Positions 1,724 to 54,250 of a DNA stretch of 55,884 nt are shown piece after piece. The notes under the pieces were generated by a model that saw nothing but the letters and a program-made list of their open reading frames with translations, ran no database searches and was not told the DNA's origin. The position numbers and the translations under genes are program-made. The stretch is from a virus: IMG/VR virus record IMGVR_UViG_3300050821_008002, positions 1 through 55,884 of that record; one strand, given 5' to 3'. The first letter of the stretch is position 1; every line of letters starts with the position of its first letter.

Positions 1724-2037
1724 CACAAATTCTCTTGCATAAGCAAACGCTCAGCGTTGAGCAGATTGCGAAGTTGGCGACGGAGGGCGTAATCGCAATC
1801 CAGACGGATGCGCCGGAAGATTTTAAGTTCCTCGGTCTCGATGTTCCGCAAATCCCGATGGACGACATGGTTTGGGCGTGCCTCGATGCTCTGAATACCG
1901 ATGAGTCCTACAGCAAAGATTCGCGTCGTCAGTTCATTCGCAATCTCGCGACGCTGGCAACGGAAGGCCGGAAAAGGCGCACGCAAGACGGTGGGCAGGG
2001 ACCCGGAAGCCCCAAGCCCGAAGAGAGGAACACGTAG
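1720..2037 (+). CDS. hypothetical protein (105 aa) whose C-terminus is encoded by a repeat element
   Basis: GTG start overlaps the previous TGA. The first 85 residues look like an ordinary small soluble protein. The last about 15 residues (GPGSPKPEERNT and the residues before it) are encoded by a repeated GGGACCC-type element, and the stop codon is the TAG inside the element's GTAGA tail. The same thing happens at the gene ending at 12806, so the tail is probably a by-product of the element and not part of the original protein. Confidence 0.55.
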   Translation: MTQILLHKQTLSVEQIAKLATEGVIAIQTDAPEDFKFLGLDVPQIPMDDMVWACLDALNTDESYSKDSRRQFIRNLATLATEGRKRRTQDGGQGPGSPKPEERNT

Positions 2038-2042
2038 ACCCC
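1981..2042 (+). repeat. GGGACCC/GTAGA repeat element A
   Basis: Contains GTGGGCAGGGACCCGGAAGC then a purine-rich stretch and ACACGTAGAC, ending one base before the ATG at 2043. GGGC at the left of the core can pair with GCCC on the right, enclosing the GGGACCC core. Closest relative is the copy at 5441-5498. It straddles the end of one gene and the start of the next. Confidence 0.7.
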
Positions 2043-2450
2043 ATGACCCTCTCCGACATCCTCTCCGATCTCCCCCTTGGCCCCGGCGACTCCAGAGAAG
2101 CCTTACTCCAGTTCCGTCTCCAGATGGCCTACTTGGCCGATCACGTCTACTCGGCAGAATTAGCCGATGGCGGAAGAGTGCGAGACGCAATCGACTTCGC
2201 CCAATGGCTGCGCGACCTGGCCGATGAAACCCGGAAGCGTTTGCAAAATCCGGAAAGCACGAAGGTATCCCTTCGGCAGGAATTAAGCAGAGAGCCGAAG
2301 GTCGCCACTTGCCGGAATCCCCAGCCGCGCTACCAATCCGAATTCTGCAACATCTGTGGCCATGTGCATATCGACGATACCGAGTGCGGATTTCCCACTG
2401 GGGCGGGTGGGAGAGAACCGTGCCGGTGTGACAGGAAGGTGACGGCGTGA
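2043..2450 (+). CDS. hypothetical protein with C-terminal zinc site (135 aa)
   Basis: ATG lies a few bases after repeat element A. The N-terminal 80 residues are helical. The C-terminal part has C-N-I-C-G-H-V-H followed by C-G-F and C-R-C-D, six Cys plus two His, a plausible zinc cluster. Stop overlaps the next GTG start. No function assigned. Confidence 0.6.
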   Translation: MTLSDILSDLPLGPGDSREALLQFRLQMAYLADHVYSAELADGGRVRDAIDFAQWLRDLADETRKRLQNPESTKVSLRQELSREPKVATCRNPQPRYQSEFCNICGHVHIDDTECGFPTGAGGREPCRCDRKVTA

Positions 2451-2719
2451 GCGGGAAGATTTTAGTTCAGCGCGGGGACGAGAACACCGAATGGCCGAAA
2501 GACGTAGGTGAGGCTTTTCTCCGGTTCTGCGCTTTCGCGGATCAGCGCGGCTTCAACGTGATTTGTGCGGTGGGCTTCAATCTGCGCACCTCGACAAACG
2601 ATCAGGCCGCGCTCTCCACGATACTATCGCCGCGCGCGTCAAGGAATCCGCATCAAGCCGAAATGTTGGGTGACATCGCGGAACTCTTCAAGGCTTCGTT
2701 TGAACGGGTGCGACAATGA
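2447..2719 (+). CDS. hypothetical protein (90 aa)
   Basis: GTG start overlaps the previous TGA and the stop overlaps the next ATG. The product is a small alpha/beta protein with no recognised motif. Support is mainly its place in the overlapping gene string. Confidence 0.5.
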   Translation: MSGKILVQRGDENTEWPKDVGEAFLRFCAFADQRGFNVICAVGFNLRTSTNDQAALSTILSPRASRNPHQAEMLGDIAELFKASFERVRQ

Positions 2720-3036
2720 CCGTAGAACTCTACTCCGCCATCCTCTCTCCCTCCGGCCCGAACTACTCAAGCTGGCACGAGGTCCTCGGCTCCGATCGCG
2801 TTCCCCTGAAAAGCTCCGCATCGGTCAAGGCTGACTTCGGGCCGGAGAAAAACGTCGAAGCCTACTTCCTCGATCTCGGCGCACTCACCTTGCCCCAGCG
2901 TGCGCGGCTGCTGGCCATGCTGGCGCGGAAATTCAAAGCGCCCATCTATGAAGTGGAAGCGGAGATCACCAATGCCGGCTTCCCGATCCGCGCCGTGGAC
3001 GTGATTGTCAGGTTTGATGTGAGGGCGTTTGTATGA
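2716..3036 (+). CDS. hypothetical protein (106 aa)
   Basis: ATG overlaps the previous stop. The product has alternating strands and helices, including L-T-L-P-Q-R-A-R-L-L-A-M-L, and no Cys cluster. No family recognised. Stop overlaps the start of the zinc-ribbon gene at 3033. Confidence 0.5.
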   Translation: MTVELYSAILSPSGPNYSSWHEVLGSDRVPLKSSASVKADFGPEKNVEAYFLDLGALTLPQRARLLAMLARKFKAPIYEVEAEITNAGFPIRAVDVIVRFDVRAFV

Positions 3037-3317
3037 GCGCAGTTCCCACCTTTCGCCACGTCGAGTCCCGCTGTCCCCAGTGCGACTACAAGCTCGACGC
3101 ATCGAGTCACGTTCAGGGCGACGATCCGAGTCCGCCAGAGCCGGGGGATGCTTCGGTGTGTCTCAACTGCGGACAGGTGCTCACCTACGAAGAGGAAGGG
3201 CGACTGCGCAAGGCGACGGTGCGCGACATCGGCGAGTTGATGAGTGCGAATCCGGAAGACTGGGCCGTGATCGAGAAGGCGCAGATGTTCATCCGGCAGA
3301 GAGGGCGGTTCAAATGA
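3033..3317 (+). CDS. zinc-ribbon protein (94 aa)
   Basis: The N-terminal half carries C-P-Q-C-D at about residues 14-18 and C-L-N-C-G about 30 residues later, a two-knuckle zinc ribbon. The C-terminal half is a helical segment beginning R-D-I-G-E-L. Stop overlaps the ATG of the following ASCH gene. Many phage zinc-ribbon proteins of this size are transcription or replication accessory factors; here that is only a possibility. Confidence 0.65.
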   Translation: MSAVPTFRHVESRCPQCDYKLDASSHVQGDDPSPPEPGDASVCLNCGQVLTYEEEGRLRKATVRDIGELMSANPEDWAVIEKAQMFIRQRGRFK

Positions 3318-3910
3318 AGGCCCTAACCCTCTGGCAGCCGTGGGCAACTCTCGTGGCGATGGGAGAGAAGCGTATCGAGACGCGCAACTGGAGCACGAAG
3401 TATCGCGGCGAGTTGGCGATTCACGCGGCGGCGAAACTGCCTCCGAAGTGGCTGGGGGCTTCTTCTCGGACTGATCCGTTCCGTGATGAGCTAGCCGACT
3501 TGTTTGCTGTGCGTCGGGATCGTGACGACCGTGGCGGCAAGCACGTGGACGATCTTCTGCGCACTCTTCCTCTGGGGAAAGTCGTGTGTGTGGTCCGACT
3601 GATGGCGGTCGAAGAAATCAACGACATGCTGCGCGAAACGCTCTCGACCCGCGAACGACTCTTCGGCAATTACGAAGGAGGGCGCTACGCCTGGCATCTC
3701 GAAATGGTGGACGTGATCGAGCCACCAATCCCGGCGAAAGGCCAGCGTTTGCTCTGGAATTGGAATTCAACGACCGACTCTCACGAGCACACTGGGCCTC
3801 TTGGGCAGCGGACCCCGAATGCCCTCACCCCGGAGAGTGAACGCCGAGACCCAAAGATTTCTGATTTTTCGAGCCTCATCCCCCGAGGCAACTTCAACGG
3901 AGGGAACTAA
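3314..3910 (+). CDS. ASCH-domain protein (198 aa)
   Basis: Start at ATG 3314 overlaps the previous stop; the reading frame is open farther upstream but lies inside the neighbouring gene. The N-terminus M-K-A-L-T-L-W-Q-P-W-A and the R-x-E-T-R-N-W segment near residue 20 are hallmarks of the ASCH fold, followed by G-E-L-A-I-H-A-A, a V-V-C-V-V-R-L strand and a W-N-W close. ASCH proteins are PUA-like and thought to bind RNA or act on modified cytidines. This is the second ASCH gene in the genome (the other crosses the assembly joint), and the two are not close copies. The last 45 residues are poorly structured and partly encoded by repeat element B. Confidence 0.85.
   Translation: MKALTLWQPWATLVAMGEKRIETRNWSTKYRGELAIHAAAKLPPKWLGASSRTDPFRDELADLFAVRRDRDDRGGKHVDDLLRTLPLGKVVCVVRLMAVEEINDMLRETLSTRERLFGNYEGGRYAWHLEMVDVIEPPIPAKGQRLLWNWNSTTDSHEHTGPLGQRTPNALTPESERRDPKISDFSSLIPRGNFNGGN
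3784..3850 (+). repeat. GGGACCC repeat element B (divergent copy)
   Basis: The segment ACGAGCACACTGGGCCTC followed by TTGGGCAGCGGACCCCGAAT matches the leader and core of copies D, E and F at 12.7-14.8 kb. The GTAGA tail is not clear. It lies inside the 3' end of the ASCH gene, about 70 bases before the methyltransferase start. Confidence 0.5.
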
Positions 3911-3916
3911 CAACCC

Positions 3917-4828
3917 ATGAACACACAATCGCTGACCACCCAACCCATCACCACTGAGGAAGTCTTACTCAGGCAAACCACCATCACCCCGCTATCCCGC
4001 CCACCCCGAGCGCAACTGCTTCGCGTGCTCCGCGCCGAACTCGAGGCCTGCCACATCCCACTCGACCAGCAGGTCTTAATCGTCGGGGGCAGCGCCGAGG
4101 ACGAACAACTCCTCCGGCAAGCCGGGTTCCAGCGCATTGTGAACTCGAACCTGTCCACGGACATGGAACGACTGAATAGCGAAGAGACGAATGGCAGTCG
4201 CGAAGAAACCAAGCACCTGGCCCTCGATGCGGAGCAGATCGACCTGCCCTCCGATTCCCACGACCTGGTCTTCGCCTCGGAAGTTCTGCATCACTGCGCC
4301 TCGCCCCACAAAGCATTGTGCGAAATGCTGCGGGTGAGCCGGCGCTACGTCGTATTCATGGAGCCCAACGATTCCGCGGCCATGAACGCCTTAGTCCGGA
4401 TGAACTTCTCCTTCCCTTACGAGCTCCCGGCCGTGATCCACCACAACTATCAATCGGGAGGACTGCGCGACTCACAGATCCCGAACTTCATCTACCGCTG
4501 GAACCGGCACGAGGTCGAGAAAACGGTCGCTTCCTGCATTCCCGAGCGAATCTTTTCCGTGCGCGCCCATCCCTACTGGGACTTCGGCATCAGCCGGGAA
4601 GAACTCGACCGGAGGAAAGCGACGCGCATTGGCACCATCACATCGGCTCTCGGCGCCGGGAACTTCATCGCGCTGCTGCGGGTGGCGCAACTCGTCCTGA
4701 ACCGGATTCCTCTTCTCCGATCACAGGGGAACAAGTTTTTCTGCTGTATCGACAAAGGGGAGGAGTTGAAGCCGTGGATGGCGCGGCAGGGGAAGGAAAT
4801 CGTTTTCAACCGCGAGTATGGTCGCTGA
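3917..4828 (+). CDS. class I SAM-dependent methyltransferase (303 aa)
   Basis: The central part follows the class I methyltransferase pattern: a nucleotide-binding strand V-L-I-V-G-G-S at about residues 54-60, D-A-E-Q-I-D-L-P as the acidic/adenine-contact region, S-H-D-L-V-F-A-S-E-V-L-H-H-C as motif IV, and M-L-R-V-S-R-R-Y-V-V-F-M-E-P as motif V. It fits the Methyltransf_11 group, which acts on small molecules, lipids or sugars as often as on nucleic acid. The roughly 110-residue C-terminal extension probably sets substrate choice. No DPPY motif, so an adenine-specific DNA methylase is unlikely. Separated from its neighbours by non-overlapping gaps, which suggests later acquisition. Confidence 0.8.
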   Translation: MNTQSLTTQPITTEEVLLRQTTITPLSRPPRAQLLRVLRAELEACHIPLDQQVLIVGGSAEDEQLLRQAGFQRIVNSNLSTDMERLNSEETNGSREETKHLALDAEQIDLPSDSHDLVFASEVLHHCASPHKALCEMLRVSRRYVVFMEPNDSAAMNALVRMNFSFPYELPAVIHHNYQSGGLRDSQIPNFIYRWNRHEVEKTVASCIPERIFSVRAHPYWDFGISREELDRRKATRIGTITSALGAGNFIALLRVAQLVLNRIPLLRSQGNKFFCCIDKGEELKPWMARQGKEIVFNREYGR

Positions 4829-4842
4829 TCGCGAGGTGTTGT

Positions 4843-5049
4843 ATGAAAGTTCTCGCCGAGATCGTTGTGCTGGTCCTGGGGCTGGGTTTAATCGCGGCGA
4901 ACCTGGCCCTCGTGGCCTACCGGATCGGAGTGAAAGACGGATTCAAGGAAGGCTACGCCAAAGGACGGCGGGAAATTGATACCTGGTGGGTGGAGATGGA
5001 TAATCAGCTAGAGGAAGAGTGGCTGAAAATCTGGCGAGAAGAACGCTGA
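4843..5049 (+). CDS. single-span membrane protein (68 aa)
   Basis: ATG 4843 follows the methyltransferase stop by 14 bases. Residues 4-26 form one hydrophobic span (IVVLVLGLGLIAANLALVAY) followed by a charged helix rich in K, E and W, expected in the cytoplasm or periplasm. This is the plan of small phage membrane effectors and superinfection-exclusion proteins, but no family match is claimed. Confidence 0.6.
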   Translation: MKVLAEIVVLVLGLGLIAANLALVAYRIGVKDGFKEGYAKGRREIDTWWVEMDNQLEEEWLKIWREER

Positions 5050-5115
5050 GGGTCTACTAGGCGTCGCCTGAAAGAGAGCAAACCGGGGCCCTGCCCGGCA
5101 ATCAGAAGAGAGGTG
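5050..5115 (-). repeat. GGGACCC/GTAGA repeat element G (reverse orientation)
   Basis: On the minus strand this reads GCCGGGCAGGGCCCCGG, a spacer, then GCCTAGTAGACC, matching copies E, H and I. The core is GGGCCCC instead of GGGACCC. The plus-strand end of the element merges into the GAGAGGTGG Shine-Dalgarno-like stretch of the gene at 5113. Confidence 0.6.
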
Positions 5116-5454
5116 GTGAGAGTGGCGAGAGTCATCGGCAACGGCGAGATCAAGGGCGAGGTCACATTGGTGATGAGTGAGGCAGAAGCGAAAGCGCTCG
5201 ATGCCCTCGTTGGCTACGGCCCGGCGGAGTTTCTGAAGGTCTTTTACGAACATCTCGGCAAGGCGTATCTACAGCCGCACGAGCGAGGCTTGAGAGCACT
5301 GTTTGAGTCTGTTCGCAATGGGGAAGGATCGGTATCGAATTTCCTGAAGCGCGTCCACGATGCGCGAGACGTGTTCACCGGGAAAAAGCAGGCTTACGCA
5401 CCGCCCGTGTACACAGGCAAACCGACCACCAGCAAGCAAGAGGTTTCAGGGTAA
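5113..5454 (+). CDS. hypothetical protein (113 aa)
   Basis: Starts at GTG 5113 (another GTG follows at 5122), preceded by a purine-rich GAAGAGAG stretch. The product begins with an acidic beta hairpin (G-E-I-K-G-E-V-T-L-V-M) then an S-E-A-E-A-K-A-L-D-A-L helix and a longer helical region, ending in a proline-rich tail. It looks soluble and cytoplasmic. No domain assigned. Confidence 0.6.
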   Translation: MVRVARVIGNGEIKGEVTLVMSEAEAKALDALVGYGPAEFLKVFYEHLGKAYLQPHERGLRALFESVRNGEGSVSNFLKRVHDARDVFTGKKQAYAPPVYTGKPTTSKQEVSG

Positions 5455-5498
5455 GGGACCCGGAAGCCCCAAAGTTGGAAGAGGGACACGTAGAAAAA
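5441..5498 (+). repeat. GGGACCC/GTAGA repeat element C
   Basis: Reads GGGTAAGGGACCCGGAAGCC then a spacer and ACACGTAGAAAAA, ending at the base before the ATG at 5499. The block GGGACCCGGAAGCCCCAA is identical to that in copy A. It overlaps the stop of the preceding gene. Confidence 0.7.
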
Positions 5499-5705
5499 AT
5501 GAGCTACTCCGAAGAGAACGGATTCGTGGTACTCCGGATGACGCGAGAAGACTACGAATTCTTGATGTTTAATCTTGGAGCCTGTATCGCCGCTCAACAG
5601 ATTCATCGCGGAACGACCCTTCCCCGGCTGATAGGCATGTCGAACCGGCTCAACGAGGGCAACCCGCACTACACCCCGTACCAGGTGGGAGAGAAACAGC
5701 CGTGA
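5499..5705 (+). CDS. hypothetical protein (68 aa)
   Basis: ATG 5499 directly follows repeat element C; a TTG 24 bases earlier would put the start inside the element and is less likely. The product is a small soluble protein with a T-R-E-D-Y-E-F-L-M-F-N-L-G helix. Stop overlaps the following GTG start at 5702. Confidence 0.55.
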   Translation: MSYSEENGFVVLRMTREDYEFLMFNLGACIAAQQIHRGTTLPRLIGMSNRLNEGNPHYTPYQVGEKQP

Positions 5706-6094
5706 CCAGAAAACGCGGCGATTCCGTGACTGACTGGACCGAGTGGGAAGATGCTGTGTTGCGCGATCTATATCCGCGAAGAATGTATGGCGAAATCGCG
5801 AAACAGCTTCGTCGGTCTCCTGGAGCCATTGCTGCGCGTGCTCATAAGTTGCGTCTTCGTAAGAATCCGGGTGCTCGCAGATCGTGGAAACTCTGGACTA
5901 AATATGCCCTCGTTATCAGGCTGGGGCTTCGCACGCTGGAGAGAAGTTGCGAAGCTGCTGGGAATCGTGAAGGAGTGGAGAGGGTCAAGGAAGCGGTATG
6001 CGCGCTTTTCCCGGAAGAAGTTTCACCGACTAGCCTTTCTCCGAGTTGCACACCCAGTGCGCCGCCCCGTTCCAATCCTTCCCGTCCTTCGTGA
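5702..6094 (+). CDS. SANT/Myb-like or GcrA-like DNA-binding protein (130 aa)
   Basis: Residues about 11-52 form a three-helix domain beginning W-T-E-W-E-D-A-V-L-R-D-L-Y-P and continuing Y-G-E-I-A-K-Q-L-R-R-S-P-G-A-I-A-A-R-A-H-K-L. Tryptophan-capped helices with this spacing are typical of the SANT/Myb-type and GcrA-type helix-turn-helix domains found in phages, often beside HNH nucleases. It is the last gene of the rightward string and runs 65 bases into the 3' end of the leftward HNH gene. The last 30 residues are Ser/Pro-rich and may be read-through. Confidence 0.7.
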   Translation: MTRKRGDSVTDWTEWEDAVLRDLYPRRMYGEIAKQLRRSPGAIAARAHKLRLRKNPGARRSWKLWTKYALVIRLGLRTLERSCEAAGNREGVERVKEAVCALFPEEVSPTSLSPSCTPSAPPRSNPSRPS

Positions 6095-6389
6095 TTCGAT
6101 CGTCTCTCCACGCGGCTCCCATGCCCCTGCGTCGCTGATGTTCAAAAGTGGCAAGGCTCAGAGCCAATCGCTTCCCGCAGAGGCAGCAGCGGCCTCCCTG
6201 ACGCAAGAGCATGGCCTCCACGCGGCGCTTGTATTCCTTCCAACCTGCCGACGAATCCTGGCAGACTTCCCTTCCGTCCGGGTACACCCGCACGGCGCCA
6301 TTCAGGATCAGGGTGAAGCGGAGGGAGGACTCCTTGGGTTCCGGGTGCCAGTGGTAGTCCCCTCGGGGGATGGGGCGGCGGCGAATCAC
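6030..6389 (-). CDS. HNH endonuclease (119 aa)
   Basis: Start is the GTG at 6389 overlapping the upstream gene's TGA. The domain lies at the C-terminus: CCLCG at residues 68-72 as the first zinc knuckle, F-E-H with catalytic-type His84, Asn107, and H-W-V-C-N at 111-115 supplying the last His, Cys and Asn. This is a compact HNH fold without extra targeting domain; the N-terminal half has strands. HNH proteins in P22-like phages may assist packaging or act as free-standing nucleases; position at the end of the leftward early operon favours an early role. Its first nine residues, MIRRRPIPR, are nearly repeated in the next gene. Confidence 0.8.
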   Translation of the reverse strand: MIRRRPIPRGDYHWHPEPKESSLRFTLILNGAVRVYPDGREVCQDSSAGWKEYKRRVEAMLLRQGGRCCLCGKRLALSLATFEHQRRRGMGAAWRDDRITKDGKDWNGAAHWVCNSEKG

Positions 6390-12362: not shown

Positions 12363-12806
12363 ATGAAACTGAGCGAAGCGATTCTTCTGGGAAGTACCCT
12401 GAGTCCGCAGGGAATGGGGATGTACGAGGACGCCGAGGGACGCCGTTGTGCGCTGGGCTCGGCCTTAGCGGCTGTCGGTGAAACGGTGCGGCCGCTCCCG
12501 GAGGATGAGAGCGACGAGACGATCCGAGTCGATAAACTACTCTCGAAACACTGGCCGCAGATTGACCTCCCGTTGTACGACGCGATGTGTCCCGACGACT
12601 GCGGCGGCCAATGTCTGGAACTCGGCTGTCTGATCGTCCACCTGAATGACGACCATCACTGGTCGCGAGAGAAGATCGCCTCCCACGTGGCGCAAATTGA
12701 GCCTCCGGAAGCTGTTGAAGTTGGCGTTCCCGACTCCCGCAACGCGCACACTGAGCTTTGTGGGCAGGGACCCCGAATCCTCTCGCTCGAAGCCCCAACT
12801 TCGTAG
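12363..12806 (+). CDS. hypothetical phage protein starting MKLSEAILLGS (147 aa)
   Basis: The N-terminus MKLSEAILLGSTLSPQGMGM followed by R-C-A-L-G-S-A-L and a C-P-D-D-C-G-G-Q-C cluster belongs to a type of small hypothetical proteins common in soil phages and prophages; function is not known. The final about 18 residues are encoded by repeat element D and the stop codon is the TAG of its GTAGA tail, so the native protein probably ended earlier. It is expressed from its own putative leaderless promoter. Confidence 0.65.
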   Translation: MKLSEAILLGSTLSPQGMGMYEDAEGRRCALGSALAAVGETVRPLPEDESDETIRVDKLLSKHWPQIDLPLYDAMCPDDCGGQCLELGCLIVHLNDDHHWSREKIASHVAQIEPPEAVEVGVPDSRNAHTELCGQGPRILSLEAPTS

Positions 12807-12808
12807 AC
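12740..12808 (+). repeat. GGGACCC/GTAGA repeat element D
   Basis: AACGCGCACACTGAGCTTT, then GTGGGCAGGGACCCCGAAT, a GCTC-containing spacer and AACTTCGTAGAC, followed at 12810 by ATG. Leader, core and tail match E and F closely. GAGC left of the core can pair with GCTC right of it. Confidence 0.75.
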
Positions 12809-12826
12809 GATGAAGATTTTGAAGTC

Positions 12827-13021
12827 TCAGGCGTGCTGACTCAGCACTTCTTCTCTAAGCACTGAGGTAACTTCTGGAACCCTCTGCGGCGGCTTTCGCT
12901 TCATCAACTTCTTCGAGTTCTCTTTGACCCACCGGCAGGCGCAGCAATCCCTTACCGGGTCAAACCCAGCCGATGCCGGTTGATGGCAGGAATGCGCGTA
13001 AGGTGAGAGAACGACTCGCAT
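12827..13021 (-). CDS. possible small leftward protein (64 aa)
   Basis: The minus-strand frame has a plausible protein sequence with C-C-A-C-R-W-V-K-E-N and a basic region, similar in style to small phage zinc proteins. There is no convincing ribosome-binding site and no TANNNT box at the right distance, and it would be a lone leftward gene in a rightward block. I rate it possible only. Confidence 0.3.
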   Translation of the reverse strand: MRVVLSPYAHSCHQPASAGFDPVRDCCACRWVKENSKKLMKRKPPQRVPEVTSVLREEVLSQHA

Positions 13022-13293
13022 ACTGGATGAGATGACGGTCTCATGGCTTTCACCTCAAGCCCTATCAGGGAATCCCCTGAGAAGCGACTTACGGAAGGCC
13101 AGGGGGGTACATGTCCGGTTGGAAGGGGTAACTGTACTTTGGTAACCTCCGCCCACTCGCGGGGAGCCGCTAGACTTCCTGAGACTGCTAGATTGAGTCC
13201 ATCCGAATACCCGGTCGACGTCCGGCGCTTTTTAAATGTCCTTCCTTTCTGGGGAGAAGTGCGTCCGCCCCCAGCGAATCCCTTCCATCCGAC
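13022..13293. other. gene-poor stretch, possible control region
   Basis: No convincing gene. It has a GAGATGACGGTCTC palindrome at about 13028-13041, repeated GGTAAC blocks (GGGGTAACTGTACTTTGGTAACC around 13125-13147) and an AT-rich TTTTTAAATG stretch near 13231. An 89-codon plus-strand frame here has a Pro-rich, atypical composition and I do not call it. The region may hold a promoter for the genes at 13294 onward. Confidence 0.35.
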
Positions 13294-13692
13294 ATGGCCG
13301 CCACCGATCTAGTTCCCTGCTTCTATACAGGGCAGAATTTCCGCTGGGAAAAACCCGCCGAATTCCGCGTGCGCGCCGAACTCCACCGGCTCAAGAAACT
13401 AAAGCTGGGCCGGTTCGATGACCACGGCAAAATCTTCCTCTTCTTCAAAGCCATCGCAGCGAAAGCGAAAACGCTCTGGGACGGTCCCCTCGGTCGCGGC
13501 CTCTTGGTTCCCTTCTCAAAACCCAAGAGCTACGGGGACAAGCTGCACTACGAGTGTGCGATGGCCGGAGATGGAAGCTGGCTGCGCGGCTATCGGCCAC
13601 GCCGGGAGATTGAAGTCTCCCCCCGCTCGAAGTTCTCCCAGCCTGGCATTCAGTGGCGTGGATATGTGCGCCAGGTAGAGGTGACGGCGTGA
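13294..13692 (+). CDS. hypothetical protein (132 aa)
   Basis: ATG 13294. The product is basic and beta-rich (F-R-V-R-A-E-L-H-R-L-K-K-L-K-L-G-R-F), and has no Cys clusters. No family recognised. Its stop overlaps the GTG of the LuxR-type regulator, so the two are probably co-translated and may act together. Confidence 0.55.
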   Translation: MAATDLVPCFYTGQNFRWEKPAEFRVRAELHRLKKLKLGRFDDHGKIFLFFKAIAAKAKTLWDGPLGRGLLVPFSKPKSYGDKLHYECAMAGDGSWLRGYRPRREIEVSPRSKFSQPGIQWRGYVRQVEVTA

Positions 13693-13946
13693 GCGCAGCC
13701 ACTCTGCCAATTCGAGAGGACTCCCTTCGTGATTCCATTGCCAGGCAGTATCCGCATTTGACGGCGCGCGAATTGGAAATCCTGCAGATGGCTGCGGACG
13801 GCGTAGACTGCGAAAACACCGCTCGGGAACTGGGGATTTGTCGCGGAAGCGTGAAGCGCTACCGGAATTTCGCGACTGTCAAATTGGGTGCCGACAACAT
13901 AACGCAGGCAGTAGCGATGGCTCTGCGACGCGGCCTGATCAAGTGA
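13689..13946 (+). CDS. LuxR/GerE-type helix-turn-helix regulator (85 aa)
   Basis: Residues about 23-84 match the LuxR C-terminal domain: L-T-A-R-E-L-E-I-L-Q-M-A-A-D-G, then N-T-A-R-E-L-G-I-C-R-G-S-V-K-R-Y as scaffold and recognition helices, and D-N-I-T-Q-A-V-A-M-A-L-R-R-G-L as the final helix. There is no receiver or ligand domain, so it is a free-standing DNA-binding module like GerE. A role in phage gene timing is the simplest reading. Confidence 0.85.
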   Translation: MSAATLPIREDSLRDSIARQYPHLTARELEILQMAADGVDCENTARELGICRGSVKRYRNFATVKLGADNITQAVAMALRRGLIK

Positions 13947-13964
13947 GATTTCAACCGCTCTCAG

Positions 13965-14040
13965 CAACGTGCACACTGAGCTTTATGGGCTTGGGACCCA
14001 TCCCAAAGCTCTCGCTCAGCGTACCCGCCTAGTAGAAAAC
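13965..14040 (+). repeat. GGGACCC/GTAGA repeat element E
   Basis: AACGTGCACACTGAGCTTT, then ATGGGCTTGGGACCCATCCC, AAAGCTC and a tail CCTAGTAGAAAAC that ends at the start codon of the next gene. GAGCTTT and AAAGCTC form a perfect seven-base-pair outer stem around the GGGACCC core. This is the best copy for deducing structure. Confidence 0.75.
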
Positions 14041-14042
14041 AT

Positions 14043-14264
14043 GTGCGTCTCTATTTGCTGGGATTCCTGGATTTCGACGACCTCGTGGAGCGAGCCTTTC
14101 ATCAAGCCTTACGATCGGACAAGAAGTTGAGTCCGGAGATGACCCAGCTATTAAGTCTGGTAGTGTTCCAGGGCTACGAATTGTTCCCGGCCAAGGTGTT
14201 CGGCGGCTGTGAATTGTTCCCTGCTAAGGGTGAGTCTGAAGGGAAGAGCAGGAAGCCGGCATGA
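14043..14264 (+). CDS. hypothetical protein with internal duplication (73 aa)
   Basis: Start at GTG 14043; an ATG at 14041 reads a different, shorter frame. The C-terminal half has two near copies of a seven-residue unit, G-Y-E-L-F-P-A-K and G-C-E-L-F-P-A-K, separated by V-F-G. Stop overlaps the next ATG. Function unknown. Confidence 0.5.
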   Translation: MRLYLLGFLDFDDLVERAFHQALRSDKKLSPEMTQLLSLVVFQGYELFPAKVFGGCELFPAKGESEGKSRKPA

Positions 14265-14491
14265 AGACAGGATTCTTCCACTCCGAGATGTATCGCCGCG
14301 AACGCGAGCTGGTCGAATCCGCCCTGGAGCAGCACCACTGGAACCGGCGCCAGGCTGCGAAGTTCTTAGGAGTCAGCTACCGGACCGTGTTCTACATGAT
14401 TGAGAAGCACAACCTGCTGTCCCCGAGAGAGCGAATGCGGATTCTGCGAAATGCGGAAAGGTTCGGACTGGCCAATCCGCAGTATGCGTGA
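14261..14491 (+). CDS. Fis/NtrC-type helix-turn-helix protein (76 aa)
   Basis: Residues about 12-50 read E-R-E-L-V-E-S-A-L-E-Q-H-H-W-N-R-R-Q-A-A then K-F-L-G-V-S-Y-R-T-V-F-Y-M-I-E-K-H, the HTH_8 domain of Fis and of the C-terminus of sigma54 activators. There is no AAA+ domain. It is the second small DNA-binding protein of this block after the LuxR-type one, and probably regulates transcription or DNA bending at the recombination region. Confidence 0.85.
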   Translation: MKTGFFHSEMYRRERELVESALEQHHWNRRQAAKFLGVSYRTVFYMIEKHNLLSPRERMRILRNAERFGLANPQYA

Positions 14492-14753
14492 CCCCGACCT
14501 CCAGCCAGCGATCGACCTCGGGCTATACACCCCCGGCGGCAAGCGAGAATTTGCGCGGGACTCTCCCGAGGGTTTGGTTAAATCGCTCAACAAGGCGCAC
14601 GACAACCAGGTCCGATCGGCGGCGCTCATCACCAAACTACAAACTCAGATATTAGGAATGCGCCGGGAGTACCGGATCAAGCTCTGGGTCCTGACCAGCG
14701 CGGTCGTGGGCATGGCGGCAATCCTAGGCTGGCTGATTGACTGGGTTCGATGA
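14484..14753 (+). CDS. C-tail-anchored membrane protein (89 aa)
   Basis: ATG 14484 overlaps the previous gene by eight bases. The first about 60 residues form a soluble helical region; residues about 66-86 (KLWVLTSAVVGMAAILGWLI) form a single C-terminal transmembrane span. The soluble part would face the cytoplasm. No family recognised. Confidence 0.6.
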   Translation: MRDPDLQPAIDLGLYTPGGKREFARDSPEGLVKSLNKAHDNQVRSAALITKLQTQILGMRREYRIKLWVLTSAVVGMAAILGWLIDWVR

Positions 14754-14767
14754 TTTCACCTGGCCTC

Positions 14768-14839
14768 GCGACGAGCACGCTGAGCTTGATGGGCACGGGA
14801 CCCGGTATAGCTCCGCTCAAAGCCACTGCTTCGTAGACT
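14768..14839 (+). repeat. GGGACCC/GTAGA repeat element F
   Basis: ACGAGCACGCTGAGCTTGA, then TGGGCACGGGACCCGGTAT, AGCTC and GCTTCGTAGACT, ending directly before the ATG at 14840. The outer stem is GAGCT/AGCTC. Nucleotide changes relative to E keep the pairing. Confidence 0.75.
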
Positions 14840-14992
14840 ATGAATCTCGCTCCCCACGCCCGTGTATCGACTCCCACGCCGGCTCCTCACCTCGAGTCGC
14901 ATCACTGCTCAACCGTAGGCCGGAAAGATTCCCAGGACCCAGTGCTTCGCCAAGAGATCCCGGACGATGACGACGGGGAAGCCCGGCAGTAA
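14840..14992 (+). CDS. small hypothetical protein upstream of the recombinase (50 aa)
   Basis: ATG 14840 follows repeat element F and the stop lies two bases before the recombinase ATG. The product has a His/Pro-rich first half and an acidic D-D-D-D-G-E end. It is not a recombinase N-terminal domain and is in another frame. Tight spacing supports coupling with the recombinase; composition alone is not convincing. Confidence 0.4.
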   Translation: MNLAPHARVSTPTPAPHLESHHCSTVGRKDSQDPVLRQEIPDDDDGEARQ

Positions 14993-14994: not shown

Positions 14995-15600
14995 ATGAAA
15001 CTCGGCATCGCACCCCGCGTCTCCGCAAGGAAGCGTCGCAGAAATCCGACGCCGGCGCCGATCGCGCTCAACCATGGCGAGCTGCGCGCGGTACTTCTGA
15101 AAGCGAGAGAGTTGGACTATCCGGTCTATGTCCTGATGCTGATCCAGTACCACCACGCCGGCCGGAACTCAGAAATGATCCACTTGCGACGGGCGAATTT
15201 TGCAGACGGATTCATCAGCTATAAGCGAGGCAAGGGTTCGGAGCCTTGCCGGCAGCGCCTGGTCGAATCGAAGGACAATCTACTCGATGAAACCAAAGTG
15301 GTCGTCGATTTCGTGCGCGACCTGAAGCCGAAAGACAGGCTCTATGCCCGGACGCGATGGACCTACTGGCGTCACCTGGTGAAACTCGCGCGTGCGGCTG
15401 GAATCCCGCGGCACAAAGCCAAGACCACCGTTTTGAAACATACGATTTGCACGGACGTGACCGAGAAGTTTGGGCTGCCGGCCGCGCAACGGCGAGCCGG
15501 ACATGTGAACGGAGCCAGCACATTGCGCTACACGAAGATGCGCGAGGACCAAGTGGATGATCTGATCGCGCTGGGAATGGGAAAACGTGCACCAAAATAG
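14995..15600 (+). CDS. short tyrosine recombinase/integrase with altered active site (201 aa)
   Basis: The protein is the catalytic half of a tyrosine recombinase and lacks the N-terminal core-binding domain. A-G-R-N-S-E-M-I-H-L-R-R supplies the first catalytic Arg57; the beta-hairpin lysine is in Y-K-R-G-K-G (77-81); G-H170 and R-Y179 are at the normal nine-residue spacing. The usual H-x-L-R-H-T box reads T145-V-L-K148-H-T, so the second catalytic Arg is Lys and the box His is Thr. Normal integrases are 300-400 residues. It may still work with help, or act as a recombination directionality or DNA-binding relic. Position next to the 15.6-15.86 kb repeat-rich gap suits an integrase beside attP. 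Confidence 0.75.
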   Translation: MKLGIAPRVSARKRRRNPTPAPIALNHGELRAVLLKARELDYPVYVLMLIQYHHAGRNSEMIHLRRANFADGFISYKRGKGSEPCRQRLVESKDNLLDETKVVVDFVRDLKPKDRLYARTRWTYWRHLVKLARAAGIPRHKAKTTVLKHTICTDVTEKFGLPAAQRRAGHVNGASTLRYTKMREDQVDDLIALGMGKRAPK

Positions 15601-47964: not shown

Positions 47965-47970
47965 ATAGCT

Positions 47971-48599: not shown

Positions 48600-48601
48600 G
48601 C

Positions 48602-49206: not shown

Positions 49207-49218
49207 CGGTTCCTCCGG

Positions 49219-49239: not shown

Positions 49240-49318
49240 GCACCCAGTGTCGCACTGCCGTCAAGCTCAGGCTGTGGAAGTTACCTTGGGTATCTAGTCA
49301 GTAAACTCAGCACGAAAG

Positions 49319-49330
49319 TACAGTGGCCGC
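49319..49330 (+). promoter_or_regulatory. TANNNT box, leaderless pattern, for the anti-CBASS-like gene
   Basis: TACAGT (49319-49324), six bases (GGCCGC), ATG 49331. No Shine-Dalgarno is present. No clear -35 box. Confidence 0.5.
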
Positions 49331-49639: not shown

Positions 49640-49642
49640 TCT

Positions 49643-50047
49643 ATGCCGACCGCCGCCGCCAAACAGGCTCTCGTTGTCACCAAAGACGAGCTCGCGCAGA
49701 TCGCCAAGCGCCAGCGGGCCATCACTGAGTTTTTCGATAATTTGTCGATCGCTGAAATTTACGACGGATTGGTCCGGGCCTGGGCGAAGCAGCCGCGCTC
49801 GACCGTCGCAGACCTGTACAACGCGCACGAGACCATCCGCGAGCAAGCGAAGGGTCTTTACGATCACGCGGATCTCGCGCTGAAGAAACTCGTCCGCGTT
49901 TGGAAAAAAGGGAAGCGGGCTCCGATCGACGCCCAGCACTACCTTGAAATCGAAGACGCCTTCCGGGGCCAGGTGAAAGCCTTCGCGCCCGGCTTCGCGC
50001 ACCGCTACAAACTGAAACTCCGCACGACAGCTCCCGAATCCGAGTAG
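49643..50047 (+). CDS. hypothetical helical protein (134 aa)
   Basis: ATG three bases after the previous stop. Mostly helical (V-T-K-D-E-L-A-Q-I-A-K-R-Q-R-A-I), basic C-terminus. Coupled to the anti-CBASS-like gene. Unknown function; possible co-acting defence factor. Confidence 0.55.
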   Translation: MPTAAAKQALVVTKDELAQIAKRQRAITEFFDNLSIAEIYDGLVRAWAKQPRSTVADLYNAHETIREQAKGLYDHADLALKKLVRVWKKGKRAPIDAQHYLEIEDAFRGQVKAFAPGFAHRYKLKLRTTAPESE

Positions 50048-50392
50048 TTTCTCCGTCGTCTTTCCCGCCCGCTTTTCTGAATTTTCCCATGTGTCGAGTT
50101 TGGCCCTGGGGTTGCTTCGCCGCTTCGACAGGCGGGTTTTGGGGTTGGGGTTGTTCGTCCAAAAAACGCTTTCTTGATCCCGCGCAGAGGTGACGAGTGT
50201 GGTTCCTCGGAAGCTTGAGCGCGGCGCCGCGTTGCCCCTGTTTTCTTCGTTTTTTTCTTCGTCGTTTTTGTGGTTGTAGTAAAGGGTTTTGTTTTTGTTG
50301 TTGTTGTTGGTTTTGTTGTTGTGGTTTTTGTCGTTGTGCCTCCAAAATTTTTTCGCGAACCGACTTTTGCACAGTTTTCCCAGAAAATAGGC
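50048..50392. other. low-complexity G+T-rich non-coding stretch
   Basis: A 345-bp gap with strong strand bias: plus-strand runs such as GTTGTTGTTGTTGGTTTTG and TTTTTTTCTTCGTCG, and almost no A or C between about 50265 and 50335. No good rightward ORF; the leftward frames here encode only poly-Gln/poly-Asn and are rejected. Such skewed, unwinding-prone DNA can be an origin or a recombination start site. Confidence 0.6.
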
Positions 50393-50421
50393 TTGACTTT
50401 GTAAATGTTCGCATTTACATT
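50393..50421 (+). promoter_or_regulatory. sigma70-type promoter with palindromic operator
   Basis: TTGACT (50393-50398), a 17-bp spacer and TACATT (50416-50421). The spacer contains TGTAAATG-N4-CATTTACA (50400-50419), a perfect eight-base inverted repeat overlapping the -10 box: an ideal repressor site. The ATG at 50430 is eight bases beyond the box, so this message too may be leaderless. Confidence 0.8.
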
Positions 50422-50429
50422 GCGATGGC

Positions 50430-50813
50430 ATGAGCCTCAAAGCCTGCGCAGCCGACAAGTGCAACAATCGCTTCGAGCCCTACTCCATCGACCAGATTTA
50501 TTGCAGCCCCCGGTGTCGCACTCGTATGGGCGTCCGCGCCTTTCGGAATCGCCTCAAACATGGCGGTGACGACGACGGAGGCGGAGGCAGGCAGCGCCGG
50601 TTGTTTCCGAAGCCAGCGTTGCTCAAGTCTAAGCCCCCGAAAGCCGCGCCAGTTGCCGAACCCACGCTGTTCGAAACGGATTTGCTCGCCCAGGCTTGGC
50701 GGGGCCGTCGAGTAAGGGCAAAACGCGCGCAGCGTCCGATAATTCCAGGTATTATGTCAACTCCGCGCAAACCCTCTGTGCGCATCCAGTCGGGGGCCAA
50801 GCATGTCGCCTAG
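50430..50813 (+). CDS. zinc-site protein, possible regulator (127 aa)
   Basis: The N-terminus has C-A-A-D-K-C-N-N-R-F then I-Y-C-S-P-R-C-R-T-R, a zinc finger of the C-x4-C-x14-C-x3-C type found in phage and bacterial proteins resembling CGNR or FCS fingers. A basic, disordered C-terminus (R-R-V-R-A-K-R-A-Q-R) could bind DNA. First gene after the strong operator-controlled promoter. Confidence 0.65.
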   Translation: MSLKACAADKCNNRFEPYSIDQIYCSPRCRTRMGVRAFRNRLKHGGDDDGGGGRQRRLFPKPALLKSKPPKAAPVAEPTLFETDLLAQAWRGRRVRAKRAQRPIIPGIMSTPRKPSVRIQSGAKHVA

Positions 50814-50929
50814 CGCCCCTCTCACCCTCCGCGCGTTTTTCCTGTTGGTCGCAGTTCTCGTTGTCGCGATATCGCTCGCGGGTGCGTCCAATGCTCGGGT
50901 TATAGGCGCTTCCCCCCAGGAAAGCCTAC

Positions 50930-51307
50930 ATGCCAGCCACTCGTCTCTTCGCGCGCATTCTCCTGCGCCTGGAGCAAGCCGAACTCTGCGAACAGAAACC
51001 CCACTTCCGGGACGATTATCGAATCGCCTGGATCACCGTTTTGAAAGCCTGGCGCGGCGAGCCCGAGCCCCACGTGCAAGCGACGTACCGCGTGCTAGGC
51101 GTTCACCCGAATCGCGTCTGGGATTCGCTGGTCGCGAGACGGCAGAGTTTGCTCGGCGCCGAGTACCCGGTCTGGTACGACGAGCGCGGCAACTACAAGA
51201 TCGAGCCGCTGGTGATGGCGAGCTCGCCGCGGAAGCCGGTGCAATCGGAGAGACGGCTGCAGGCACGGCTGGAGTTTGGTCCGAAAAGCGACGATCGCGC
51301 AGCCTGA
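50930..51307 (+). CDS. hypothetical basic protein (125 aa)
   Basis: ATG 50930 after CAGGAAAGCCTAC. Helical, Arg-rich (R-L-F-A-R-I-L-L-R-L-E-Q-A) with a C-terminal basic patch. The gap 50814-50929 contains a membrane-like frame starting at 50803 that I do not accept. May bind nucleic acid. Confidence 0.55.
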   Translation: MPATRLFARILLRLEQAELCEQKPHFRDDYRIAWITVLKAWRGEPEPHVQATYRVLGVHPNRVWDSLVARRQSLLGAEYPVWYDERGNYKIEPLVMASSPRKPVQSERRLQARLEFGPKSDDRAA

Positions 51308-51388
51308 AAAGTGTGACGTAAAAAACAATCGGCGCGGGTTCATAGGCCGCGCCGACACAAAATCAAGTCGCCCTTCGACGGAGACTCA

Positions 51389-51796
51389 GTGAGAGCATTC
51401 CACAATTCGCCTGCCGATTCAAGCGAAAAATCTGCGGAAAACTCCGCCCTTTCTGTGGATTCTCCCCGCGCCGTCGCGCTCAAGCTGGCGGCTGATCTAG
51501 CCCGTCAATTGGGAATGGTTCGCACCTGGCCGAACGTCCAGGCCATCCGGCTGGCGATTGAGACAGAGGCGGAATATTCCCAGATTTCCGTAGGGAACGC
51601 CGCCGCGCTCATCGTCTGTGCCGCCTTGGATTTCACCATCGTTAGCCCGGAGCACTACAGCTTTCAGGCTGCGACCATTCTCCGTAAATCGAACAACGTC
51701 AACCGATTCTGGTTCGAGGACTGTCTTTGGCGTCACAAGGATGCCTACAAAAAAATGCTTTACCAACTCCAGCAACGGTCCGAGGTTTCCACGTGA
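51389..51796 (+). CDS. hypothetical helical protein (135 aa)
   Basis: GTG start at 51389, 10 bases after CGACGGAG. Contains helical elements (A-V-A-L-K-L-A-A-D-L-A-R-Q-L) and an aromatic F-W-F-E-D-C-L-W-R-H. Looks like a replication-initiation accessory in style only. Stop overlaps the cold-shock gene. Confidence 0.55.
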   Translation: MRAFHNSPADSSEKSAENSALSVDSPRAVALKLAADLARQLGMVRTWPNVQAIRLAIETEAEYSQISVGNAAALIVCAALDFTIVSPEHYSFQAATILRKSNNVNRFWFEDCLWRHKDAYKKMLYQLQQRSEVST

Positions 51797-52023
51797 TGGG
51801 AGTCGTCAAGTTTTTCGATCCGGTGGCAGGTTACGGCTTCATCATCCCGGAAGGTGGGGGGAAAGATGTTTTCTTTCACCAAACCGCGTTGCAGGAGACG
51901 ACCCGGGTGAGCACCGGGCATGAGGTCGAATACTCACTGTTTCAAGTGTTTGGGAAGGACAAGCCGCGCGCACTCAGTGTGCGGTTGCTGAACAAACGGA
52001 GCCTATCGTATGCCGCGGATTGA
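51796..52023 (+). CDS. cold-shock-domain protein (75 aa)
   Basis: Residues 1-66 are a cold-shock domain: V-K-F-F-D-P-V-A-G-Y-G-F-I with RNP1-like G-Y-G-F-I at 12-16, and D-V-F-F-H (RNP2) at 24-28, then E-V-E-Y and P-R-A-L-S-V. It binds single-stranded RNA or DNA and could unfold phage mRNAs or protect ssDNA. ATG overlaps the previous stop. Phage-encoded Csps are known but not common. Confidence 0.9.
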   Translation: MGVVKFFDPVAGYGFIIPEGGGKDVFFHQTALQETTRVSTGHEVEYSLFQVFGKDKPRALSVRLLNKRSLSYAAD

Positions 52024-52071
52024 GTTCTGGGGCTACACGGTCGAGACGGAGGGAGAAAGTTTGTGAGCCTG

Positions 52072-52139
52072 GGTCTACAGAGTTTTGCTGTTGGTGAATT
52101 CGTTGGGATGGGGCCCTACCCCCGATCTGAGAGGAGCTG
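52072..52139 (-). repeat. GGGACCC/GTAGA repeat element H (reverse orientation)
   Basis: Minus strand: GGGGGTAGGGCCCCATCCC, a spacer with CCAACAGCAAAAC and CTGTAGACC. Close to copy I. It ends at the GTG start of the gene at 52140 on the other strand. Confidence 0.65.
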
Positions 52140-52391
52140 GTGAGCGCGGTGAAACGTAAACCTCAAACCGTCTGGGACGAACCGGCGCTGCTCCATGCGG
52201 TGAAGGACGAGAAGGGGCGTGTCATCGCCTTTGGTCGCACGAAGTTGGGACATGCCGTGTACGACGTGATTTTTTCTTCGATGTCCGCGAAGAAGGCAGC
52301 CAAGAAGCATCACGTCTCGCGGGAATTTGTTTTGCAGAAGCGCCGCGAGTGGCGCGAGAAGAAACGCAGCAAATCGAAAGGGGCAGCCTGA
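52140..52391 (+). CDS. hypothetical basic protein, possible HTH (83 aa)
   Basis: GTG 52140 after GAGAGGAGCTG. The middle has S-A-K-K-A-A-K-K-H-H-V-S-R-E-F-V-L-Q-K-R, which looks like the recognition part of a simple helix-turn-helix followed by a basic helix. Stop shares bases with the next ATG. Unknown function. Confidence 0.55.
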   Translation: MSAVKRKPQTVWDEPALLHAVKDEKGRVIAFGRTKLGHAVYDVIFSSMSAKKAAKKHHVSREFVLQKRREWREKKRSKSKGAA

Positions 52392-53038
52392 TGGCAAAGC
52401 AGGAAAGCAAAATCCGCGTCAATGAGAAATCCCCGCTGAAATGGGCCGACGGCTGGGACCGAATCCCGATCGGCGATCGCAAGGACATGAAGGCGTGGAA
52501 GAAACCTTTCGCCTACTACCGGGATGCACTCGTGCAGCAGCTCGAACGACTGGGCGCGAACGAAGTCGTGATCTCGTTCAACACCGGCGATGATGCGCGG
52601 CGCGATCCCGGCGTGACCGTGTATTTCTCAAAGCCAGTGAAGGCCGACTATAGCTGGCAAATGGGCCTCGGGATCGACAACCCCGCACCCACCATCATCG
52701 AGATCGACGAGGCTTATCGAAAGAAAGCCTTGCTCAACCATCCCGATCGTGGCGGCGATGTCGAGATTTTCAAAAAGCTCGGCAAGTATCGCGAAGCCGC
52801 GAAAGCCTGGGTCCTGGGCAAACAAGGGACCGACTTCGAGTTCGCGCTTCCCTGCGATCGCTTTTCCGAGCCGCGCTGGAACATCAACGCGCTGCGCCTC
52901 GGCGTCGCCGCTCTGCGTCGGCTCGAAGAGTACGGCCTGCCGGGAATGCTCGAACGTACATTCCGCGGATTCCGCGTAGCTCTGGCCGCGCACGCCAGTT
53001 CGGAGGAAGGCAATGTCGACAAAGCCGTTAACTCTTAA
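52391..53038 (+). CDS. J-domain protein (215 aa)
   Basis: The central segment, residues about 100-140, is a J-domain: I-D-E-A-Y-R-K-K-A-L-L-N-H-P-D-R-G-G-D, with the diagnostic H-P-D at 117-119, then a third helix I-F-K-K-L-G-K-Y. The flanking N-terminal 95 residues include a strand-rich region; there is no zinc-repeat part. J-proteins stimulate DnaK ATPase. As in phage lambda replication, it could steer host DnaK to a phage replication or assembly complex. Overlaps the next gene by 26 bases. Confidence 0.85.
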   Translation: MAKQESKIRVNEKSPLKWADGWDRIPIGDRKDMKAWKKPFAYYRDALVQQLERLGANEVVISFNTGDDARRDPGVTVYFSKPVKADYSWQMGLGIDNPAPTIIEIDEAYRKKALLNHPDRGGDVEIFKKLGKYREAAKAWVLGKQGTDFEFALPCDRFSEPRWNINALRLGVAALRRLEEYGLPGMLERTFRGFRVALAAHASSEEGNVDKAVNS

Positions 53039-53540
53039 AGGCGTCATCGATGTCGAAGATGAAAACGAGGAGTTGCTGCGTCAGTGGCGCAGAGAGAAGC
53101 AGCAACTCGAAGACGAAGCCCGCGCTCTTCGGACCGAACTGGAGAACGAGAGAGCGGAACGGGAAAAGCTGCAACGGTCGATTGTGATTCTCCGGCGGCA
53201 ACTGGGTCCGCTCCATCACGCACTGCGCGCCGTGTTTGGGGAGATCGAGATAGCGGTCGGGGAAGAAGAGCCTATGCCCGCGCGAACTGCCGGAAGTCCG
53301 GCACAATCAAGTAACAGCACGAATCCTGATCGATGGAACGCGATCAAGGGACGCCTCACGAAAAAGCAGTCGGAGTTGGTCGACGTGCTCCTGCTCCAGG
53401 GAGGAATGAATCGCACACAATGCGCGAAGGCAATCAAGTCCGACTACACCTTCTGCCGCAAATCCGTCATTGCACCCCTTCTCGCGCAAGGGCTGCTGAT
53501 CGAGGGCGGGGATGGTCTTTTGGAGTTGAAACAGCTATGA
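53013..53540 (+). CDS. coiled-coil plus winged-helix-like protein (175 aa)
   Basis: Residues 16-65 are a coiled coil (E-L-L-R-Q-W-R-R-E-K-Q-Q-L-E-D-E-A-R). Residues about 110-172 form a small helical domain: L-T-K-K-Q-S-E-L-V-D-V-L-L-L-Q-G-G, then T-Q-C-A-K-A-I-K-S-D and a wing, consistent with winged-helix DNA binding. A dimeric DNA-binding role is likely. ATG 53013 lies within the J-domain gene. Confidence 0.65.
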   Translation: MSTKPLTLKGVIDVEDENEELLRQWRREKQQLEDEARALRTELENERAEREKLQRSIVILRRQLGPLHHALRAVFGEIEIAVGEEEPMPARTAGSPAQSSNSTNPDRWNAIKGRLTKKQSELVDVLLLQGGMNRTQCAKAIKSDYTFCRKSVIAPLLAQGLLIEGGDGLLELKQL

Positions 53541-53839
53541 CCTCCCTCATCACCCCCACCATCCTCGAAGAACTAGAGCGGGAGCGCCTCCAGTCGATCG
53601 ATCCCGGCGAGAAGTGCCGATTCTGCGGCTGCTCCCAATTGAATCCCTGCAGGATTCTCTTCGCCCAGTCTGGTTCGCTCATACGACTTGTGTTCGACGA
53701 AGCAGAAGCAGATTTCATGCAAGGCTGCTCCTGGTTTCTTCCCGGAGTGTGCAATGCGCCGGAGTGCGTAGAGAAGCTGCTGATTGAAGCAAGGGGAAGA
53801 GCAGTGCTCTTTGATGCTCAGGGACGAAGGACTGGGTAA
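53537..53839 (+). CDS. zinc-site protein (100 aa)
   Basis: ATG overlaps the previous stop. C-R-F-C-G-C near residue 27 with C-R-I, then C-S-W and C-N-A-P-E-C near 65-77 form two metal sites, a plan seen in other phage zinc-ribbon proteins. Unknown function. Confidence 0.6.
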   Translation: MTSLITPTILEELERERLQSIDPGEKCRFCGCSQLNPCRILFAQSGSLIRLVFDEAEADFMQGCSWFLPGVCNAPECVEKLLIEARGRAVLFDAQGRRTG

Positions 53840-53849
53840 GAAAGCTTTT

Positions 53850-53922
53850 TGTCTACGAAGTTTTGCTGTTGGAGAAAGCGGATCGGGTCCCTACCCCCAA
53901 GCGTAGGAGAAGGTGGTGAGAG
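53850..53922 (-). repeat. GGGACCC/GTAGA repeat element I (reverse orientation)
   Basis: Minus strand: TTGGGGGTAGGGACCCGAT, then CTTTCTCCAACAGCAAAAC and TTCGTAGAC. It has the exact GGGACCC core and CGTAGAC tail of D and F. The gene at 53923 starts directly after its plus-strand end. Confidence 0.7.
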
Positions 53923-54189
53923 ATGAGTTGGAGCGTCACTGCAATCGGCAAGTCGTCGGCAGTTCGTGCCTCAATCGCAAAACAATTCGCAACCGGAAGC
54001 AAGTGCGCCGAGCCCGAAGAAACGATTCGGCAGGCCGTTGCTGTAGTTATCGATAAAGCGCTCGAAGCACAAGCAGAAGCGACCGCCGTCAAGGTTAGCG
54101 CCAGCGGTTCGCAGAGCAGTTCCGGCGGTGTGGTCACGAACAATTCCCTGTCGATCATCGTCGATCCGATGTGGGGTTTTGTTGAATAA
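53923..54189 (+). CDS. hypothetical protein (88 aa)
   Basis: ATG 53923 with GGAGAAGGTGG upstream. Ala/Ser/Val-rich, a helix followed by a Ser/Gly linker and strands (N-N-S-L-S-I-I-V-D-P-M-W-G). No family recognised. Confidence 0.55.
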   Translation: MSWSVTAIGKSSAVRASIAKQFATGSKCAEPEETIRQAVAVVIDKALEAQAEATAVKVSASGSQSSSGGVVTNNSLSIIVDPMWGFVE

Positions 54190-54191
54190 CT

Positions 54192-54250
54192 CTGGCCAGC
54201 CCTCCTGACGATGGAGGGCCGGGACCCGGCCTGGTCAAAGTTCGGAGACG
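54192..54250 (+). repeat. possible GGGACCC repeat element J
   Basis: CCCTCC-N7-GGAGGG forms one hairpin and CCGGGACCCGG a second, with CCAG/CTGG outside: a three-way-junction look. The GGGACCCGG core equals that of A and C, but the tail is missing. Membership is uncertain. Confidence 0.4.

Follow-up and report, generated by a model that had tools for sequence, protein, structure and literature searches.

Short sequences that are dispersed at gene boundaries, or that bracket small passenger genes, have been described in several systems. The promoter early stem-loops (PeSLs) of T4-like phages are mobile regulatory cassettes combining a promoter with a stem-loop and have been proposed to aid modular shuffling, while the stoperators of mycobacteriophage L5 are asymmetric, repressor-bound sites in the short gaps between genes, close to stop and start codons. 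Passenger genes located between inverted sites, and lacking an enzyme of their own, occur in the transposon-like mobile insertion cassettes (MICs) and in pdif modules. In cluster K mycobacteriophages the start-associated sequence (SAS), GGGATAGGAGCCC, lies directly upstream of start codons and is rarely found in the opposite orientation (excerpts of PMC3203893), and integron attC sites, which have been reported in phage genomes, are recombination sites at the gene end of small single-gene units (excerpts of PMC9892861). Here we describe, in a stretch of viral DNA of 55,884 nucleotides (IMG/VR record IMGVR_UViG_3300050821_008002, positions 1 to 55,884; the whole stretch is referred to as the window), what looks like an undescribed dispersed element of about 85 bp belonging to many uncultured phages, with the appearance of a DNA-level gene-boundary element rather than of a folded RNA.

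The element is a DNA sequence that occurs in both orientations, keeps a preferred distance from gene starts, brackets short stretches as inverted copies and is sporadically present. Comparison of 95 copies revealed three parts: a leader with CCAC approximately 20 bases before the core and GAT a few bases before it; the core itself (GGGYAGGGACCC), taking the form GGGCAGGGACCC or GGGTAGGGACCC, with variants; and, following a variable stretch, a tail (CGTAGAnnAnAAG). The GTAGA of the tail was found in 81 of the 95 copies, with a core-to-GTAGA spacing of 27-29 bases in 63 of these and of 31-35 bases in 18, and 15 of the latter 18 carried ATCCC or GTCCC after the core. The conserved boxes and their near-fixed spacing point to a putative binding site for one or more proteins.

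Relative to genes, as called by a simple gene caller of our own, 41 of the copies were of gene-end type, 32 of gene-start type and 22 unassigned. Gene-start copies ran antisense to the gene adjoining their leader; in 19 of 32, the core lay 25-28 bases from the start codon of that gene. Gene-end copies were in the sense orientation. Nine of the 41 carried the stop codon within the core, at +6, and 13 carried it near the tail, at +42 to +52; in the rest it lay elsewhere. The opposite orientations at gene starts (antisense) and gene ends (sense) also speak for DNA. Neighbouring copies less than 650 bp apart were arranged (-,+), tails outward, in 16 of 16 cases where one in four would be expected (p 2e-10), which is the arrangement of inverted repeats at both ends known from transposons and miniature inverted-repeat transposable elements. 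Below 900 bp, 17 of 22 neighbours were (-,+), the others being three (+,+), one (-,-) and one (+,-). Most pairs enclosed one plausible short gene, which differed from pair to pair (some gene calls were unclear), and a pair in contig G012, around gene family 269, enclosed two called genes.

The window held ten copies in total, seven on the plus and three on the minus strand, given here with their scores in a sequence-only model of the element and with the two short genes that they bracket:

1965-2043, plus strand: copy A, gene-end type, core at 1993-2004, 47.7 bits; the stop codon of the upstream open reading frame (ORF) is the TAG of CGTAGA (2035-2037)
3772-3856, plus strand: copy B, gene-end type, in the 3' end of ORF 3029-3910, tail degenerate (CGAGAC), 48.2 bits
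5047-5124, minus strand: copy G, gene-start type, antisense, upstream of the gene ending at 5454, 39.1 bits
5122-5454, plus strand: short gene between G and C (start 5122 or 5113), the copies inverted with tails outward; its TAA stop falls inside the core of copy C (GGGTAAGGGACCC)
5419-5500, plus strand: copy C, gene-end type, 41.1 bits
12735-12813, plus strand: copy D, gene-end type, 59.8 bits; ORF 12363-12806 is stopped by the TAG of its tail (12804-12806)
13960-14041, plus strand: copy E, after the ORF ending at 13946, with ATCCC after the core and longer spacing, 41.9 bits
14767-14843, plus strand: copy F, upstream of a short ORF (14840-14992) and a Phage_integrase-family gene (14995-15600), 58.0 bits
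52069-52149, minus strand: copy H, gene-start type, antisense, upstream of ORF 52140-52391, 29.3 bits
53845-53923, minus strand: copy I, antisense and of gene-start type, 43.5 bits; its core lies 26 bases from the start of gene 53923-54189
53923-54189, plus strand: short gene between I and J, the copies inverted with tails outward
54184-54268, plus strand: copy J, gene-end type, core 26 bases beyond the stop of gene 53923-54189, 39.9 bits

The ten copies scored 29-60 bits and the next-best window site 5 bits, which shows separation and is not an independent test, because the 19 copies from which this model was built include these ten. The pattern GGGYAN{0,1}GGGMCCC gave 7 matches in the window and its reversed control 0, and GGACCC by itself was not enriched there (25 found, 34 expected). 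All ten copies had been listed by a first-pass annotation of this DNA (J as a possible one), and their absence from the late operon, also stated there, was borne out by the model scan of the window. Its spacer of 20-25 bases was too short, the measured core-to-GTAGA distance being 27-35, and its description of nearly all copies as ending near a start codon was right for five of the ten (A, C, D, E and F) but not for the remaining five, with copy D adjoining the start of merely a 9-codon ORF. Copies G, H and I are minus copies that sit between plus-strand genes. The in-frame reading of GQGP in copies A and D and in a copy from contig G005, all stopping at the same TAG, would fit repeats that encode a C-terminal peptide (GQGP...) shared by several phage proteins. 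Such a conserved protein tail is scarcely credible and is refuted by differing reading frames, since the frame of the core varies among copies and, in gene-start copies, the core lies upstream of the gene.

A strict core-plus-tail pattern searched on viral contigs returned five further contigs, a slightly looser one the same five, and two looser patterns 29 and 66 stretches. The 19-copy model matched 50 of 85 new stretches from the looser patterns at E<=1; the other 35 had no match at this threshold, and six more that were weak were left aside. Among the excluded pattern matches were three stretches judged by eye to be unrelated, and two (L035 and L036) representing one same sequence with leader and core but without the tail. 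Searching whole contigs (44 records, chosen for matching, comprising the window, the contigs of most matching stretches and the first five) yielded 98 matches, from which 97 copies were extracted, the second copy of G003 being left out; two copies without a tail (G009 6457 and G026 28391) were then dropped, giving the 95 copies from 44 contigs. These are not independent, because some contigs hold identical or near-identical copies (G024/G032 and G029/G040).

A model built from the ten window copies only was run on 45 other IMG/VR contigs and gave 63 matches (E<=1e-3), spread over 40 of them; these contigs when reversed, and one shuffled set, each gave 0. Alignment by chance at the core, which the first-pass annotation had named as fatal to its proposal, was not seen. 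As 43 of the 45 contigs had been fetched by core or tail patterns, and 38 of those 43 kept owing to a match with the first model, this control shows that the whole element recurs and says nothing on how common it is. Contigs G001 and G002, which were fetched by their terminase only, gave no model match. Two near-identical copies lie near both ends of contig G003 (from 2596 and from 71200), each followed by a methyltransferase-like gene, and the two proteins differ slightly. A scan of genome contigs matched once in Streptomyces orinoci and once in Clostridium magnum, and both matches were taken as unrelated; the latter (L038, 7738-7830) is a GC-rich inverted repeat that includes GGGCAGGGACCC and then GGCGTAGACGC, in AT-rich surroundings, and is probably unrelated. 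Rfam gave 0 matches at gathering thresholds in the window and none in L010 or L013, in agreement with the earlier statement that no named riboswitch or non-coding RNA fits, and a permissive Rfam scan of 12700-14900 gave one sub-threshold match, to a human long non-coding RNA family (17 bits, threshold 40). In the literature, the core strings were found only in papers unrelated by title, and a phrase search gave nothing that we recognised as the element.

The repeats had first been described as structured, placed before genes, with stems changing in a paired way. A structured cis-acting RNA (riboswitch-like, a leader or a processing hairpin) could draw on the potential of the core GGG and CCC to pair, on some start-side leaders that could pair with the core, and on one copy in contig G007 (AGGTAGGTACCT), a single case, in which a change on both sides keeps the GGG:CCC pairing. 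RNAalifold on 19 copies returned only the three invariant GGG:CCC pairs, with no covariation, and on 95 copies the same three pairs only; the strongest mutual-information pairs among the 95 were mostly not base pairs. Leaders, cores and middles swapped between copies folded equally well (12 tests, lowest p 0.04, uncorrected). The mean folding z of the whole element was -0.11 and -0.14 on the two strands (flanking controls -0.06), and that of sub-regions ranged from -0.25 to +0.29. Covariation and folding excess on either strand were thus absent, and both orientations relative to transcription were seen where a structured cis-regulatory RNA would keep one orientation to its gene; a structured RNA is strongly disfavoured and would be very surprising. 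The real, unnamed repeat family of the first-pass annotation therefore stands and its structured RNA does not: the paired stem changes were unsupported by RNAalifold, the swaps or the folding scores, and these same tests gave the lack of significant covariation that it had itself named as decisive.

With somewhat less than even confidence, we read the copies as the termini of one-gene cassettes on which a factor acts in trans. One or more proteins would bind the boxes of the element. On the start side, the copy stops shortly ahead of the start codon, and its AGGGAGAAAGG-like complement may serve as the ribosome-binding site; on the end side, the copy extends into the end of the gene and frequently contains the stop codon. 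Inverted pairs would then be the two ends of a cassette, moved or exchanged by a trans-acting factor of phage or host origin, and unpaired copies would be ends that have lost or exchanged their partner.

Direct evidence for mobility is weak. Two contigs carry family 269 and two carry family 270; for each family a copy is kept on the same side but the neighbours differ, the start copy of family 270 being missing in G012. Homology ends at the core edge for family 269 (start side), family 270 (end side) and family 124 (G000/G025). The genes f160 and f4 overlap by four bases in G010 and are split in G042 by a block containing copy, gene and copy, the block opening with a 33-codon ORF (read by eye), and similarly f81 and f20 overlap by four bases in G011 and are split in the window by such a block. 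Phages about 95% alike locally differ in having a copy at one gene end.

Several observations weigh against cassettes moved in trans. The separating blocks in G042 and the window exceed copy-gene-copy, and 61 of the 95 copies lie outside any pair of less than 900 bp. No target-site duplication was common to the pairs (one pair, in G044, has a 9-base repeat), and the two copies of a pair were no more alike than copies across pairs (p 0.14). Among homologous pairs the element was no more tied to the leader-side gene (present in 10/71) than to the tail-side gene (14/99); among pairs of >=80% identity the figures were 4/7 and 3/4. Local homology ended within the element in 18 of 748 cases, where 18.9 would be expected for positions drawn at random and 28.0 for gene boundaries drawn at random. 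One-sided homologies reaching the element ended at +12/+13 twice and at +50 to +62 three times, tail-side homologies began anywhere between -41 and +24, and the homology of G045 with G000 continued beyond the core; a break at the core edge does not locate a crossover, because the core is conserved everywhere. No recombinase was common to all, the tyrosine recombinase family PF00589 being found in 27 of 46 records, two of them without the element.

The same breakpoints bear on whether the element is a passive linker, comparable to the PeSLs, in which short shared boundary sequences let homologous or illegitimate recombination swap neighbouring genes. Related phages do share one side of the element and not the other, with the change inside it; as homology ends in the element no more often than at gene boundaries elsewhere, and as the start-codon distance and the tail-outward pairing would go unexplained, a passive linker seems unlikely. 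A recombination hot spot was likewise rejected: there were convincing single cases, but homology ends across contigs were not enriched in the element.

A close rival to trans-acted cassettes, and one that we hold possible with rather low confidence, is a regulatory DNA-protein site, at which a phage or host protein would bind boundary copies and inverted pairs would let it loop or isolate a single accessory gene, a layout resembling that of the L5 stoperators. It would account for the near-fixed start-codon distance of start-side copies and the near-fixed spacing of core and tail, for the position of the window copies outside the late operon, and for the few signs of mobility. Operators, however, usually lie at gene starts and not as inverted copies at gene ends; the element is sporadic at homologous gene ends (24/170 pairs); and no protein family is common to all, the widest blastp family being found in 11 of 26 long contigs, which may be incomplete.

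Returning to cassettes acted on in trans, it is possible, if doubtful, that they form an undescribed phage cassette class, with single short genes between inverted, tail-outward 85-bp ends, one extending to the ribosome-binding region and the other to the stop codon, and with a trans-acting enzyme spreading them between phages. It is an open question how phages acquire and lose their many small accessory genes, and an element at both gene edges offers a handle on it: it predicts where units begin and end, and could be used to look for the acting protein. Should the element be regulatory, it would represent an unusual mode of bracketing single phage genes.

The Phage_integrase-family gene at 14995-15600, after copy F, is short, lies upstream of the terminase genes and has blastp family members in 17 contigs; this short tyrosine recombinase is also found near the terminase in G001 and G002 and, because these gave no model match, is probably unrelated to the element. 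One G003 copy is followed by a serine-recombinase-like gene and one G007 copy by an HNH-like gene (both named from sequence). The ORF 14840-14992 (MNLAPHARVST...) looks like a remnant of the G003 serine-recombinase-like gene that follows the matching copy there. ORF 14043-14264 contains two adjoining 33-base repeats (14163-14228) that are 79% alike, and the gene at 54581-55483, of the phosphoadenosine phosphosulfate reductase family (phrog_424), may be an auxiliary metabolic gene.

The first and last 97 bases of the record (1-97 and 55788-55884) are identical, so that it could represent a complete genome, either circular or terminally redundant. Its terminase, portal and capsid have PHROG family matches, and relatives of the terminase were found in 149 INPHARED phage records including Salmonella phage epsilon15, every one at <60% identity; the first 25 kb of the window, the product of the copy D gene and copy F each had no match in INPHARED. 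The window's terminase, portal and capsid families were missing by blastp from 17 of 26 contigs of >=38 kb (38 kb or longer), and G021, which lacks those virion families, is closely related to G023, in which they are present; because contigs may be incomplete, we do not claim unrelated virions.

Compared with the systems outlined at the outset, the element is filed under no known family. As far as the excerpts of PMC3203893 describe them, SAS and the extended form ESAS are alike in having many short asymmetric boundary copies beside different gene families, and GGGATAGGAGCCC outwardly resembles the core GGGTAGGGACCC; the element differs in its tail 27-35 bases off, in the commonness of both orientations and in its use of gene ends. 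In phage TM4 (10000-52797), 11 near-matches to SAS were found, all on the plus strand, and the element model gave no match (best 8.9 bits, E 0.06), so membership of SAS/ESAS fails by position, orientation and model score. The attC sites, in the parts of PMC9892861 that describe them, share the small single-gene unit with a site at the gene end, but the element has no folding excess and its copies are inverted at the two gene ends; the attC boxes were found in 0 of 95 tails (R', GTTRRRY) and 4 of 95 leaders (R'', RYYYAAC), and attC membership was rejected on these boxes.

PeSLs are likewise dispersed and intergenic, and the element differs from them in lacking folding excess. MICs and pdif modules differ in that here target duplication is absent, the arms are not paired and no recombinase is shared; they are alike in having passenger genes bracketed by inverted sites. 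The L5 stoperators resemble the element as asymmetric sites near stop and start codons, in contrast to which the element is about 85 bp long, is built of three parts and is used in both orientations to transcription.

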